The notes beneath the pieces were generated by a model, which was not told the origin of the DNA, ran no database searches, and was given only the letters and a program-made list of their open reading frames with translations. Shown piece after piece: positions 52,352-58,135 of a stretch of 64,000 nucleotides of DNA. Numbering within the stretch: the first letter of the stretch is position 1; every line of letters starts with the position of its first letter. The position numbers were made by a program, and so were the translations under genes. The stretch lies in contig JAHCJZ010000001.1 in assembly GCA_026126025.1 (NCBI GenBank), positions 124,001-188,000 of the forward strand, in the 5' to 3' direction. This stretch comes from Bauldia sp. (lineage in GTDB: Bacteria > Pseudomonadota > Alphaproteobacteria > Rhizobiales > Kaistiaceae).

Positions 52352-53356
52352 ATGAACGATTTGGGCCGCCGCTTCGCCGTTGCCCCGATGATGGACTGGA
52401 CCGACCGGCATTGCCGCTCGTTCCATCGCCGGCTGTCGCGGCATGCCTTGCTCTATACCGAGATGATCACCGCCGAGGCGATCATCCGCGGCGACCGCGA
52501 ACGCCTCCTGGCGTTCGAGCCGCTCCAGCATCCGGTGGCGCTGCAGCTCGGCGGTTCCGACCCGGCGCGCCTCACCGAGGCCGCGCGCATCGGGGCTGCC
52601 TTCGGCTATGACGAGATCAATCTCAATGTCGGCTGCCCGTCCGACCGCGTGAAGTCGGGCACCTTCGGCGCGTGCCTGATGCTGACGCCGGCGCTGGTCG
52701 GCGCATGCGTGGCGGCGATGCGGGCGGCGGTCGATGTGCCGGTGACCGTCAAATGCCGCCTTGGCGTCGACGACCAGGACGCGGAGACCGCGCTCGATGC
52801 GCTTGCGGACGCTGTCGTCGCGGCGGGCGCATCGGCGATCTGGGTCCATGCCCGCAAGGCATGGCTGAAGGGCCTCAGCCCGAAGGAGAACCGCACCGTC
52901 CCGCCCCTCGACCATGACCGCGTCCACCGCCTCAAGGCGCGGTTGCCGGATGTCTTCATCGGCATCAATGGCGGGATCGCGGATCTCGACAGCGCGGAGG
53001 CGCATTTGGCCCATGTCGACGGGGTCATGCTGGGCCGGGCCGCCTATCACCGCCCCGACCTCCTCGCCGAGGTCGACCGCCGCTTCTTCGGTGCGGCCGG
53101 CCTGGACGCCGATCCGTTCGCGGTGGCCCGGGCGATGATCGGCTACGCCCGTGCCGAATGCGCCGAGGGCGTCCCCGTCCATCACATCACGCGGCACATG
53201 CTCGGCCTCTTCCACGGCCAGCCCGGTGCCCGCGCGTGGCGTCAGATGCTGACCACGGGCGCTTCGAAGCCAGGCGCGGGACCGGAGGTCATCGCCGCCG
53301 CCCTCGCGGTCGTCGAGGCGGCGCGGAGCGAGGCGACGGCAGACGCCGCGGCCTGA
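52352..53356 (+). CDS. dusA: tRNA-dihydrouridine(20/20a) synthase
   Basis: A 334-residue FMN-dependent TIM barrel reducing U20/U20a in tRNA. FAVAPMMDWTDRHCRSFHR at the N-terminus, INLNVGCPSDRVKSGTFGACLM with the catalytic Cys, and GINGGIADLDSA are DusA-specific. ATG 52352. It meets the stop of the retropepsin-like gene with no gap. Confidence 0.95.
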   Translation: MNDLGRRFAVAPMMDWTDRHCRSFHRRLSRHALLYTEMITAEAIIRGDRERLLAFEPLQHPVALQLGGSDPARLTEAARIGAAFGYDEINLNVGCPSDRVKSGTFGACLMLTPALVGACVAAMRAAVDVPVTVKCRLGVDDQDAETALDALADAVVAAGASAIWVHARKAWLKGLSPKENRTVPPLDHDRVHRLKARLPDVFIGINGGIADLDSAEAHLAHVDGVMLGRAAYHRPDLLAEVDRRFFGAAGLDADPFAVARAMIGYARAECAEGVPVHHITRHMLGLFHGQPGARAWRQMLTTGASKPGAGPEVIAAALAVVEAARSEATADAAA

Positions 53357-54091
53357 TCACGGCGTCAGCGTCATCCGGTTGCCGCTGATGGTGAAGCTCT
53401 GGAGCTCGTTGAGGAAATTGAGCCCGAGGAGGCTCGTCTCCAGCATGCCGGGCTGCGCCACCAGCGCCGCGACGCGGTTCATCCGGATCGAGCCGATCGC
53501 GAGGCGCTCGATTACCACCGGCGCGGCGAGCGCGACGCCATTGGCGGTCGAGACCTGCACGACATAGTCGCGCGCCCGCGGCGTGTAGCCCGCGAGCCAG
53601 GCGTCCTCGGCCGAGAGGGTCACGACGCTGGCGCCGGTGTCGATCATCATCTCGACCGGGGCGTTGTTGACCGTCGCCCGCACATTGAAGTGCCCGCCGG
53701 AGCGGGTGACGATGACCTCGTTGGTCTCGCCGTCGGTCGTCATCATCGCGGTGCCGGGGAAGAGCTCCGAGCTGACCCGGCGGAACATCCATTCCAGCTC
53801 GTCGCGATAGGTGTAGCCGACGAGCACCACGATGAAGATCGCCGCCCAGGCGATCGCCTGGCGGAGCAGCCGCCCCACCGGCGTGCGCCCGATCAGCCCG
53901 GCGAAAAGGAACGCCGAGATCGCGATGAGGCCGGCAAGCTGGGCGAAGCGGTTGTCGGCAAGCCCGAGGATGGCGTCGTCGCCGCCGCGAAAGACGAGGA
54001 GGAGCGCCGCCAGCGCGATGATGGCGACGGCGAGCCAGAGAAAGACCGGCCTGCCGCGTCGCGGCGGGGGCGTGGTCTCGTCGACCGCCAT
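53357..54091 (-). CDS. membrane-anchored retropepsin-like aspartic protease (TIGR02281 type)
   Basis: A 244-residue protein. Three membrane helices in the N-terminal half (LWLAVAIIALAALLLVF, LAGLIAISAFLFAGLIG, AIAWAAIFIVVLVGYTY) precede a clan AA aspartic protease domain with the single catalytic motif MMIDTGASVVTLS. Flap and dimer segments follow (SLLGLNFLNELQSFTIS). The catalytic domain should face the periplasm and act as a homodimer. The substrate is unknown. Confidence 0.85.
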   Translation of the reverse strand: MAVDETTPPPRRGRPVFLWLAVAIIALAALLLVFRGGDDAILGLADNRFAQLAGLIAISAFLFAGLIGRTPVGRLLRQAIAWAAIFIVVLVGYTYRDELEWMFRRVSSELFPGTAMMTTDGETNEVIVTRSGGHFNVRATVNNAPVEMMIDTGASVVTLSAEDAWLAGYTPRARDYVVQVSTANGVALAAPVVIERLAIGSIRMNRVAALVAQPGMLETSLLGLNFLNELQSFTISGNRMTLTP

Positions 54092-54147: not shown

Positions 54148-54954
54148 TCACGCGAAGGCCAAGGCGAGGAGGAGATAGGTGACCGCGGTCACCTGCTGGA
54201 CCGCGCCCAGCGTCTCGCGGGTGTAGCCGCCGAGACGGCGCCGGCACCATGCCTCGAGCGCGAAGGTTGCGGCGGCCGCGCCGGCGAGCGCCACGATCAT
54301 CGGCCAGACGCCGACCGCGATCGCGGTGAGGATCGCGGCGATGAGCGCGCCAATGGCGATGGCCGTGGTGGTGCCGCGCTCGTCGGGGACGCTGAGGCCG
54401 GCGGTCGCCGGATCCTGCGTCGCCGGCGCGAGCGCCCGCCACGGGCGGACCATCGCCCCGAACGACACCGCTTCCGCCGCGATCAGGACGAACAGCCCGT
54501 CGGTCTCGTACGGCACCGCGAGCCCGCCAAGCGCTGCGGCCGAAAGGGAGACCGCGAAGACGATGGCGAGCACGCCGCGCGCGCCGAGCGGGCCGGCGAG
54601 CCGGGCGATCCGCCCCGGCGGCGTGTCGCCGGCGCCGGCTTCCGCGGTGGCGGCGAGCCCGGCCTCGTTCACGGCGCCGGTCAGCGTCACCACGACCAGG
54701 ATGGCGAGAAGGCCCGCGACGAGCGAATTGAGGCCGATCGCGATGGCGATGAGGAGCGCGATGCCGCCGGCAATGCCGATCCCCGCGCCGATGACCGGGA
54801 AGGTCCATGCCGCCTTGGCGACCTGGCCGGGGAGCGGCGCGCTGCCCCATTGCGGCGGCATGCCCGGGATGCGGGTCAGGAAGGCGAGGCCGGTAATGAG
54901 ATCCGAAATCCCGGCGGCCCGCGGATCGGGGCCGGCCTTGTCGTCGGAGGCCAT
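54148..54954 (-). CDS. CobS-like protein with degenerate catalytic motifs
   Basis: A 268-residue polytopic membrane protein clearly derived from cobalamin synthase (adenosylcobinamide-GDP ribazoletransferase): LAFLTRIP, LTGAVNEAGL, RRRLGGYTRETLGAVQQVT. In functional family members the core reads HEDGLxDTADG and later MKDSRIGxxG and GGxTGD. Here residues 96-106 read NEAGLAATAEA, the second motif LAGPLGARG, and the third YTRET. The Mg2+-binding Asp residues are therefore gone, although the frame is intact. It is divergent from a cobT-like gene with similar losses. ATG 54954 is chosen; a TTG at 54984 is possible. Confidence 0.8.
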   Translation of the reverse strand: MASDDKAGPDPRAAGISDLITGLAFLTRIPGMPPQWGSAPLPGQVAKAAWTFPVIGAGIGIAGGIALLIAIAIGLNSLVAGLLAILVVVTLTGAVNEAGLAATAEAGAGDTPPGRIARLAGPLGARGVLAIVFAVSLSAAALGGLAVPYETDGLFVLIAAEAVSFGAMVRPWRALAPATQDPATAGLSVPDERGTTTAIAIGALIAAILTAIAVGVWPMIVALAGAAAATFALEAWCRRRLGGYTRETLGAVQQVTAVTYLLLALAFA

Positions 54955-55043
54955 GTCTGCGCCGCCACGATGCTTGTCGTTCAACTTCAGGGATTTATAG
55001 AAGGCCGGCGGGCGGCGGTACAGAGACGCCGCCGCGCCAGTTG

Positions 55044-56006
55044 ATGCCTCACTTAACGGCAGTCCCCATGCCCCCGCCGCCCGTCCGGCCGCTCGACGAC
55101 ATCCGTACGATCATCGCTGGCCTGCCCGCGGCGGACCGCGCGGCCGTCGCTGCGCTTCGCGAGCGGCGGCTCGGCAGCCCCGCCGGCGAGCTGGGCGCCT
55201 TCGAGGACATCCTCGCCTGGCTGGCGGCATGGCAGGGCAAGGATCCGCCGACCGCCAGCCGGCCGCAGATCGTGGTGTTTGCCGGCAATCACGGTGTCGC
55301 CGCCCGCCACCGGCGCGGCGGCGCCGCCCGCGAGATCGCCGCCCTCGCGGCGGGGACGACCACGCTCAACCGCCTCTGCCAGGCGAACGGCATCGGCCTG
55401 AAGGCGTTCGACCTCGCGCTGGAGACCGCGACCGCCGATTCTGCCCGGGCGCCGGCGATGAGCGAGGTCGAATGCGCCGCGACGATCGCCTTCGGCATGG
55501 AGGCGGCAGCCGGCAATGTCGATCTTCTCGCGGTGAGCGGGATCGGCGACGGCTCGGCGCTCGCCGCGGCCGCGATCGGGCGGTCGCTGTTTGGCGGCAT
55601 GGTCCCGTCATGGCTCGACCGGCGCGCGCGGGCCGGGACCGCCGAGAAGGTCGCGGACGCCGTGGGGCGCCACCTCCCTGCTGCCGACGACGTGGTCGAC
55701 CTCGCGCGCCGCCTCGGCGGCCGCGAGACGGCCGCGATCATCGGCGCGATCCTCGCCGCGCGGATCGCACGCGTGCCGGTGCTGGTCGACGGCCTCGCCG
55801 CCACAGTCGCCGCCGCCCTCCTCCAGGCGGCCGCGCCGGCGGCGATCGACCATTGCCGCTTCACGCAGCCCGCCGCCGGCCGGGTGCACCGGCGCTTGCT
55901 CGACGCCATCGGCGCACGCCCCGTCCTCGACACCGCCCCCGCCGGCCCCGGCATCGGCTCGGTGCTGGCGATCGCGGCCATCAAGGCAATGGTGGCGGCG
56001 GCCTGA
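55044..56006 (+). CDS. CobT-like protein lacking the family's catalytic glutamates
   Basis: A 320-residue relative of nicotinate-nucleotide:dimethylbenzimidazole phosphoribosyltransferase. VVFAGNHGVAAR, CAATIAFGMEAAAG, RRLGGRETAAIIGAILAAR and AAIDHCRF fit the family well. The substrate loop GEMGIGNTT is replaced by AVSGIGDGS, the KPPGxLG loop by SPAGELG, and the GEGTGA loop carrying the catalytic Glu (Glu317 of Salmonella CobT) by GPGIGS. The reading frame is full length. No cobalamin riboswitch is seen upstream. The start (ATG 55044 or 55068) is uncertain. Confidence 0.8.
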   Translation: MPHLTAVPMPPPPVRPLDDIRTIIAGLPAADRAAVAALRERRLGSPAGELGAFEDILAWLAAWQGKDPPTASRPQIVVFAGNHGVAARHRRGGAAREIAALAAGTTTLNRLCQANGIGLKAFDLALETATADSARAPAMSEVECAATIAFGMEAAAGNVDLLAVSGIGDGSALAAAAIGRSLFGGMVPSWLDRRARAGTAEKVADAVGRHLPAADDVVDLARRLGGRETAAIIGAILAARIARVPVLVDGLAATVAAALLQAAAPAAIDHCRFTQPAAGRVHRRLLDAIGARPVLDTAPAGPGIGSVLAIAAIKAMVAAA

Positions 56007-56231: not shown

Positions 56232-58073
56232 CTAGGCGTCGTCGCTGCGGCCGAAGGCGGCGCGGTTGAAGCCGAGCGGCCGGCCGGTGCCTTCCACGCT
56301 GCGCGGAGTGGGGGCGCTGCGGTCCGGCGTTGCGGTCTCGCGGGGAGGCGCGGACGGGGCGAGCGCCCGCTCTGCCTGGTCCTGGAGCAGGCCCGGCAGC
56401 CCGTCGATCGGCGGCGGTACGCCGCGGCTCATGCTGGCGTTCCGCCAGCGCTCCACGACCGCCGCGACCATCGGGCGCGTGACCGAGCTCGCCTCGCCGA
56501 CGCCTTCGCCGGCGGTGGTGCTCTGAGGCAGGAGGTGCTTCGGCAGGCGATGGAAGCGAAGCCGCGTCGGCAGCGACACGCCCTCGCCGAACGCGAACAC
56601 CTCGCCGGTGCCGAGCGACGGCACGAAGGCGAGGAGGCTTGCCGCGGCGTCCGAGACTGCCGAGCGCACGATGTCCTGGTCGCGGTCGTTGGCCATGCGC
56701 ATCGTGAAGAGCGTGCTGCACTGGGAGAGGATCGTCGCGTCGAGCTCGGCCGGGCGCTGGGTGATAAGGCCGAGATGGACCGCGTATTTGCGGCCCTCCT
56801 TGGCGATGCGGGACAGCGCCTTCTTGGTCGGCCCGAAGCCGATCGACTTGTCCGCCGGCGCGTAGCGGTGGGATTCCTCGCAGACCACCAGCAGCGGCAC
56901 CGCGCCGCCGCTCCACAGCCCGAACTCGAACGCCATCCGGCACAGCACGGACACCAGCGAGTCCACGACCTCGGCCGGGAAGCCGGCGAGCTGCAGCACG
57001 CTGACATTGGTGCCGTCCTCGGTGAGCTGGAAGACGCGGGTCAGCACGTCGACCATGGTGTCGCCGCCGACATTGGCGCTCTGGAACATGAAGCCGTAGC
57101 GGGGATCGTTCGACAGCGTCTCGATGCGGCTGATCAGGCGGTTGTATTTCGGGAACGCAGAGCGGTTCTCCAGCTTCCCCATCCGGTCGTCGATGACGTC
57201 GATGAGGTCGGAAAGCCGGTAGGGCACGGGCGTGTCGACCGTGTAGCCGCCGCGCTCTCCGGCGGCGGCCTTGCGCAGGCTCACCTTCTGGCCGTCGCGC
57301 TCGCTGGCGAAGCGGTTCTTGGCCTCGGGGATCGCCTCGCTGAGGATGCCGACCTCCTCATCCACGCCCGGGCGGGCGCGGAAGATCGCATCGACGATCT
57401 CCTCGAAATTGAAGAGCCAGAATGGGAGGCGGAGCGTCGTCGGGCTCAGCACCTGCGCCGCCGGTCCGAAGCATTGGCCGTATTCATTGTGCGGATCGAC
57501 CAGGAACACCCGCTGCTGCGGCCGGGCGCGAAGGATCTCGCGCAGGATCACCGCAACGCCGCTCGACTTGCCGACGCCGGTGGTGCCGAGAATGGCGAAA
57601 TGCTTGTTCACCATCTCGTCGACGTCGATATAGGCCGGGATGGCGCCGTCCTGCGACAGCCTGCCGATCTCGATCGTGTGCTGGCCGCTGAGGTCGTAGA
57701 TGAGGCGGAGCTGGTCCGTCGTCATCAGCGCGACCGCGTCACCGATCACCGGATAGCCGCTGATGCCGCGCTGGAAGAAATGCTTCCCGGTATCGGCAAG
57801 GGCGATCTCGCCGAGAAGGTCGATGTCGGCGCCCGCATGGCCCCGGCTGCCGTCGGAGACGGCCGTGATCGCGCCGACGACGATCGACGAGGAGGTGGCG
57901 ATCGCGACGAGCTTGCCGACCGTCAGCGGCGCCTCGCCCGCGACCGTCGCGCGGTCGTCCGCAAGGCTCATGACCGCGCTCGATCCGCTGACCGACACGA
58001 TCCTGCCGCGGGGCGCCGGATCGGCGGCGGCAAACTGGCTGGGAGCAGGTGAATCCACCGGGCGCACCTTCAT
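56232..58073 (-). CDS. HerA-like ATPase with HAS-barrel domain
   Basis: About 613 residues. An N-terminal HAS-barrel-like beta domain (GRIVSVSGSSAVMSLADDRA, GDAVALMTTDQLRLIYD) precedes a FtsK/HerA-type ATPase: Walker A AILGTTGVGKSSGVAV, Walker B PLLVVCEESHRYAP, and sensor ITQRPAELDATILSQC. The tail (last 80 residues) is Pro/Ser/Arg-rich and disordered-looking. Bacterial HerA-like proteins take part in DNA translocation, repair or defence; without a NurA-type nuclease nearby the role is open. Two TTAACC motifs lie upstream. Confidence 0.85.
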   Translation of the reverse strand: MKVRPVDSPAPSQFAAADPAPRGRIVSVSGSSAVMSLADDRATVAGEAPLTVGKLVAIATSSSIVVGAITAVSDGSRGHAGADIDLLGEIALADTGKHFFQRGISGYPVIGDAVALMTTDQLRLIYDLSGQHTIEIGRLSQDGAIPAYIDVDEMVNKHFAILGTTGVGKSSGVAVILREILRARPQQRVFLVDPHNEYGQCFGPAAQVLSPTTLRLPFWLFNFEEIVDAIFRARPGVDEEVGILSEAIPEAKNRFASERDGQKVSLRKAAAGERGGYTVDTPVPYRLSDLIDVIDDRMGKLENRSAFPKYNRLISRIETLSNDPRYGFMFQSANVGGDTMVDVLTRVFQLTEDGTNVSVLQLAGFPAEVVDSLVSVLCRMAFEFGLWSGGAVPLLVVCEESHRYAPADKSIGFGPTKKALSRIAKEGRKYAVHLGLITQRPAELDATILSQCSTLFTMRMANDRDQDIVRSAVSDAAASLLAFVPSLGTGEVFAFGEGVSLPTRLRFHRLPKHLLPQSTTAGEGVGEASSVTRPMVAAVVERWRNASMSRGVPPPIDGLPGLLQDQAERALAPSAPPRETATPDRSAPTPRSVEGTGRPLGFNRAAFGRSDDA

Positions 58074-58135
58074 TCGCACGGCCGCCGGACGCGGCCTGAA
58101 CCGGCGCGAACTCTAGGAAAACAATGCCAAGGCCG

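Follow-up and report, generated by a model that had tools for sequence, protein, structure and literature searches.

A degenerate CobS-CobT gene pair in a Bauldia genome as the probable remnant of lost cobamide nucleotide-loop assembly

Loss of B12 synthesis is common, and its intermediate stages are seldom caught. In the genome of a Bauldia species, the 64,000-nucleotide stretch of DNA analyzed here (hereafter, the window) contains an open gene for a homologue of CobS with a strongly altered core motif, raising the question of what such a gene is for, if it is for anything. The first-pass annotation had proposed that this protein lost every metal-binding acidic residue of the motif and that it represents a membrane pseudoenzyme or an enzyme with changed chemistry, as opposed to the product of a decaying gene.

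The cobS open reading frame encodes 278 amino acids if translation starts at TTG and 268 if it starts at the ATG at position 54954. The Pfam CobS profile (PF02654) is matched over positions 2-207 of 207 with a score of 66.4 bits (cut-off 23.2; E = 5e-18), which bears out the initial description as a full-length homologue. The protein resembles the CobS/CobV family (PF02654, TIGR00317) over its full length, including the hydrophobic helices and the FLTR-P and FP--G motifs of the first helix, and its membrane segments are uneroded, as the annotation had also stated. It differs from the family in that R175 and the HxDxxxDxxD, DSRxG and GxTGD motifs are degenerate (Table 1) and that the scores fall under the NCBIfam equivalog cut-offs (63.4 versus 110 for TIGR00317; 133.7 versus 322 for NF001276). 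The altered motifs had been read correctly: NEAGLAATAEA is the exact translation of the minus strand, corresponding to residues 106-116 of the 278-residue frame, and LAGPLGARG in place of KDSRIG and TRE in place of TGD recur in our alignment.

Table 1. Features of the cobS-cobT locus, in window coordinates
Feature	Position	Strand	Basis or remark
CobS (adenosylcobinamide-GDP ribazoletransferase) homologue	54148..54984	-	Pfam; alignment with 25 canonical relatives; AlphaFold (pLDDT 89)
NEAGLAATAEA for HEDGLADTADG (Salmonella HxDxxxDxxD, loop 2)	54637..54669	-	H to N, D to A, D to A, D to E
Second loop-2 motif, IARLAGPLGARG for L-IM-DSRIG--G	54571..54606	-	Alignment; one residue deleted
GYTRETLG for GxTGDTLG (Salmonella loop 6, GxxGDxxG)	54196..54219	-	G to R; E at the position of D229
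CobT (nicotinate-nucleotide:dimethylbenzimidazole phosphoribosyltransferase) homologue, encoded divergently from cobS	55041..56006	+	Pfam DBI_PRT, E = 7e-47
CobT SGIGDGSAL for GEMGIGNTT	55536..55562	+	Alignment; Salmonella Glu174 equivalent is Gly
CobT AGPGIG for LGEGTG	55941..55958	+	Alignment; equivalent of general base Glu317 is Pro
Flanking aspartic protease gene	53357..54091	-	Locus marker, together with dusA (52352-53356), in congeners without cobS-cobT
Flanking HerA-type ATPase gene	56232..58079	-	Adjoins the aspartic protease gene in both congeners without cobS-cobT

For Salmonella CobS, PMC8092220 describes the HxDxxxDxxD motif, reports that each of the substitutions D82A, D86A, D89A and D229A abolishes function, and links the catalytic loop to the corrinoid substrate. 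The equivalents of these four aspartates in the window protein are A, A, E and E, respectively. Thus, the annotated loss of all acidic residues, described there as metal-binding, holds for the essential aspartates but goes too far with respect to the invariant Glu107, which is retained here. With two of the four aspartates replaced by glutamate, some ligand binding could persist.

The alignment with the 25 family relatives includes 38 invariant CobS columns, 13 of which are lost in the window protein (H109, D111, D115, D118, G122, L130, M133, D135, R181, L199, G204, G263 and D264, in alignment numbering). HEDGL-D---D is present in all 25 relatives, among which the aligned catalytic columns are invariant, and D108, D112, D115, R175, G256 and D257 are conserved in 35 of 35 sequences of an independent CobS alignment; because these columns do not vary in either data set, chance can be excluded as the cause of the motif change. 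CobS rarely loses its motifs in this way: across 73 loci, almost all of them in other genera, 70 had both motifs, and the remaining three were two partial matches and one protein in which the Asp is kept. The CobS of an alphaproteobacterial metagenome-assembled genome (L165:4149-4922) reads SEDAIADSFD, with the histidine replaced and all aspartates present.

The adjacent gene encodes a protein that shares with CobT (PF02277, TIGR03160) the fold and the core sequences FAGNHGVAA, AFGMEA and RRLGGRE. In Salmonella CobT, Glu317 is the general base and Glu174 a ligand-holding residue (PMC9561151), and the window protein lacks the equivalents of both; the Glu317 position is Glu in 31 of 31 other CobT sequences, and the Glu174 position is Glu in 29 and Asp in 2 of the 31. 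Furthermore, the segments TK, SAYP-VT-QMV, GEMGIGNTT and GPGTG are changed or deleted, with active-site loops among the deletions, and the C-terminus is truncated. Of 141 family-invariant CobT residues, 61 are lost, compared with 0 to 5 in canonical relatives by the same leave-one-out count, and the score of 133.5 bits stays below the cut-off of 319. Judged by sequence, CobT appears to be catalytically degenerate to the same extent as CobS, that is, equally dead, a point that the first-pass annotation had overlooked.

Both proteins yielded confident AlphaFold models from alignments of canonical homologues, an input that biases the predictions toward the canonical fold. The CobS model (pLDDT 89) contains all the long helices, and within the protein its confidence is lowest (64) in block 121-130, where the catalytic loop used to be. 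The CobT model (pLDDT 90.7) has the CobT structures 1wx1 and 1j33 and ArsAB as its top PDB matches, with TM of about 0.8. As predictions, the models show that the two sequences are compatible with their folds, which says nothing on expression. Sequence and fold searches yielded no solved CobS among the structures covered. ArsAB, one of the best Foldseek matches of the CobT model, is likewise a diverged CobT-like system, a Veillonella heterodimer whose two CobT-like subunits make up an active enzyme. The window locus differs in that a single CobT-like protein is encoded beside a CobS-like one.

CobS and CobT of the window are the sole copies in the genome (3.22 Mb, 99.6% complete); a second, canonical cobS, for which the first-pass annotation had recommended a search, was found nowhere in it, nor was a second canonical cobT. 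Canonical CobS is encoded in all 25 other family genomes outside the genus Bauldia, and all 24 relatives with a CobT match have the canonical form, with the two genes divergent and adjacent wherever both were seen, an arrangement that the window shares. At the family level, then, the relatives at this locus are uniformly canonical, a pattern that the annotation had named as speaking against its reading (recent loss). In the comparison it had suggested, of the NEAGLAATAEA form among close homologues, no sharer was found in the family, in an order sample of 397 genomes or in GTDB scans. The same searches yielded no CobS closer than 41%; a GTDB scan with the CobS pattern returned nothing, and one with the CobT alignment gave a best match of 47%.

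In the CobS tree, the window protein groups with G010, which represents the nearest genus (support 80), by which inheritance looks vertical, and in the CobT tree the window branch has a length of 2.2 compared with 0.27 for the neighboring G012. A horizontal origin was rejected given this CobS grouping and the match of the locus and its neighbors to the family. Two congeners (G008 and G009) have neither CobS nor CobT, and in both the gap between the protease and HerA genes measures 0.2-0.4 kb. These two species are sisters (DusA 90%) and share 0.55-0.62 identity with the window species at four-fold sites of DusA, HerA and Mrp, placing the congener split at about 0.75-1 substitution per site pairwise. 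A further copy of the window's HerA-type ATPase, at 57% identity, lies elsewhere in this genome (G000:C44:97862-99496).

To place the pair in its metabolic context, we considered the rest of the B12 pathway, for which absences refer to a single genome for each species, with completeness between 93 and 99.6%. CbiB, which is encoded by 24 of the 25 family genomes outside the genus, is absent from the window genome and the two congeners; CobP, CobO, CobQ and CobN are likewise absent from all three Bauldia genomes, and the same search recovered them in four relatives, except for CobN in the fragmented G010. The window genome encodes two TP-methylases, like relatives no longer making the corrin ring. 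It retains one B12-binding protein of MetH length and a PduO-type adenosyltransferase, and has three cobalamin riboswitches (in regions including G000:C41:195000-212000 and G000:C1:88000-102000), located upstream of metE, of nrdA-nrdB, and of an operon for a FecCD-type permease and a periplasmic binding protein. The two congeners have one cobalamin riboswitch each, upstream of an import permease. Judging from these genes, the bacterium presumably imports B12 and keeps B12-independent enzymes as a back-up. Several genomes of the family encode just two TP-methylases and hence apparently lack corrin-ring synthesis; two of these (G007 and G012) keep CobN, CobO, CobQ, CobP, CbiB, CobS and CobT, and possibly salvage at the level of hydrogenobyrinate.

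With CbiB and CobP missing and CobT dead, there is no route to the substrates of CobS. That the window CobS would be unable to act as a cobalamin synthase is well supported, because its essential aspartates are all replaced, a second CobS is lacking, and the enzymes that would supply it with substrates are either absent or dead. The state of CobS is best explained together with that of its equally dead neighbor and with the loss of the rest of the pathway, and we consider it very probable that the two genes are a catalytically dead pair, the remnant of a lost assembly of the cobamide nucleotide loop. Under this scenario, cobS-cobT would be the ancestral locus of the family, passed down vertically; the lineage would have lost nucleotide-loop assembly, with cobS-cobT left over; and the import of complete B12 for MetH would have released the pair from catalytic constraint. 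A single loss of the pathway for the whole genus is the parsimonious assumption.

What has happened to the pair since then can be read in two ways. Either the pair, or CobS alone, has been maintained by purifying selection for a noncatalytic role, for example as a membrane-bound protein that would hold a corrinoid or a nucleotide, to which we assign a chance close to even; or function was lost recently on the window branch and both genes now drift neutrally, their frames being still open because stops arise slowly in DNA of 70% GC, an account to which we give an only slightly lower chance. We simulated neutral drift from canonical relatives; the tests were chosen post hoc and are modest, none of them decisive. 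Both genes are free of stops. CobS has two internal deletions and an insertion and CobT four internal deletions, all of which preserve the frame, although the CobS gap at column 120 is shared by two canonical relatives. Frameshift-tolerant alignment at every penalty tried detected no compensating frameshifts behind the motif changes, which, with the in-frame indels, favors maintenance. The intact frame emphasized in the first-pass annotation is real but carries little weight alone: at 70% GC, an open frame is weak evidence of selection. With this value as the equilibrium GC (the window's intergenic DNA has about 0.67), a gene that had drifted to the observed residue retention would still be free of stops with a probability of 0.27-0.40 in the case of cobS and of about 0.16 in that of cobT; for both together the probability drops to about 0.04, and drifting genes would also have had to escape every frameshift. 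Invariant-residue retention (0.68 in CobS, 0.63 in CobT) is reached by simulated drift at about 0.15-0.23 substitutions per site, such that neutral drift of about 0.2 per site reproduces both the 63-68% retention and the observed GC1 and GC2. GC at the three codon positions (0.73/0.58/0.92 and 0.78/0.59/0.91) resembles that of active genes, yet it was rejected as proof of selection, since drift of 0.2 per site can, from some starting genes, give nearly the same values. Had the genes drifted neutrally ever since the ancestor of the genus, about 0.4 of the invariant residues would be left, below what is observed; the congener split is thus too old for pure drift since that ancestor, and recent release requires a late or independent pathway loss in the window lineage. 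Such a loss is plausible given that B12 genes have been lost repeatedly within the family of Kaistia, with ring-synthesis genes already gone in several genera.

The two proteins give different pictures. In CobS, about 61 of 177 variable columns match the family majority, a rate equal to that of canonical long-branch relatives, where uniform drift would leave about 46 (P between 0.002 and 0.07, depending on the baseline); charged residues occupy 3 of 180 never-charged columns, compared with 9-10 in the simulations (P about 0.0075). Both results favor maintenance and conflict with drift. In addition, CobS invariants are all kept outside the cytoplasmic loops (11 of 11) but only in part inside them (14 of 27; Fisher P = 0.006), with loops assigned by us after PMC8092220. 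The losses in CobT are clustered (39 runs versus 59.5, P below 0.001), which also argues for maintenance, as do the confident predicted folds, although the latter lean toward the canonical form through their alignments. Against it, the erosion of the variable columns of CobT is what uniform drift would give, its C-terminus is shortened and its tree branch is much longer than that of G012, the altered form of CobS is conserved in no relative, the pathway is gone, and the sister species have dispensed with both genes. The original view of a membrane pseudoenzyme that is not decaying is therefore supported only in part: the in-frame indels, the lack of stops, the uneroded CobS columns and the confident fold speak for it, and pathway loss, deletion in congeners, even erosion of CobT and the similar retention under drift of 0.2 per site speak against it. 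A more specific form of maintenance, in which CobS and CobT would be a selected pseudoenzyme pair forming a noncatalytic membrane complex for binding, sensing or delivery of corrinoids after pathway loss, seems unlikely to us. Far less probable still is an active enzyme pair whose substrates or metal site would be new. Glutamates at two of the four aspartate positions and the retained Glu107 would suit it, as would the general base of Methanocaldococcus jannaschii CobT, which can move (PMC9561151), but CobT also lacks Glu174, the GIGNTT segment and the GPGTG and SAYP loops, CobS lacks the DSR and TGD motifs, and no new invariant motif is definable because no relative carries the form. The changed chemistry put forward in the first-pass annotation thus gained no positive support.

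As a catalytically dead remnant, the locus would capture a stage at which the last two nucleotide-loop genes have kept open frames but not their active sites, and the surrounding pathway is lost. Our literature search gave no trace of CobS or CobT pseudoenzymes; if kept by selection, these proteins would be the first of which it does, and they may help to separate the membrane location of CobS from catalysis. If they are relicts, they exemplify how an open frame can mislead in GC-rich DNA, and annotation would wrongly credit the bacterium with finishing cobamides. A partial parallel is offered by Mycobacterium tuberculosis, which, according to PMC12713380, retains B12 biosynthetic genes without making B12; nearly all of the genes are kept there, whereas the window species has only cobS-cobT left, both stripped of catalytic residues.
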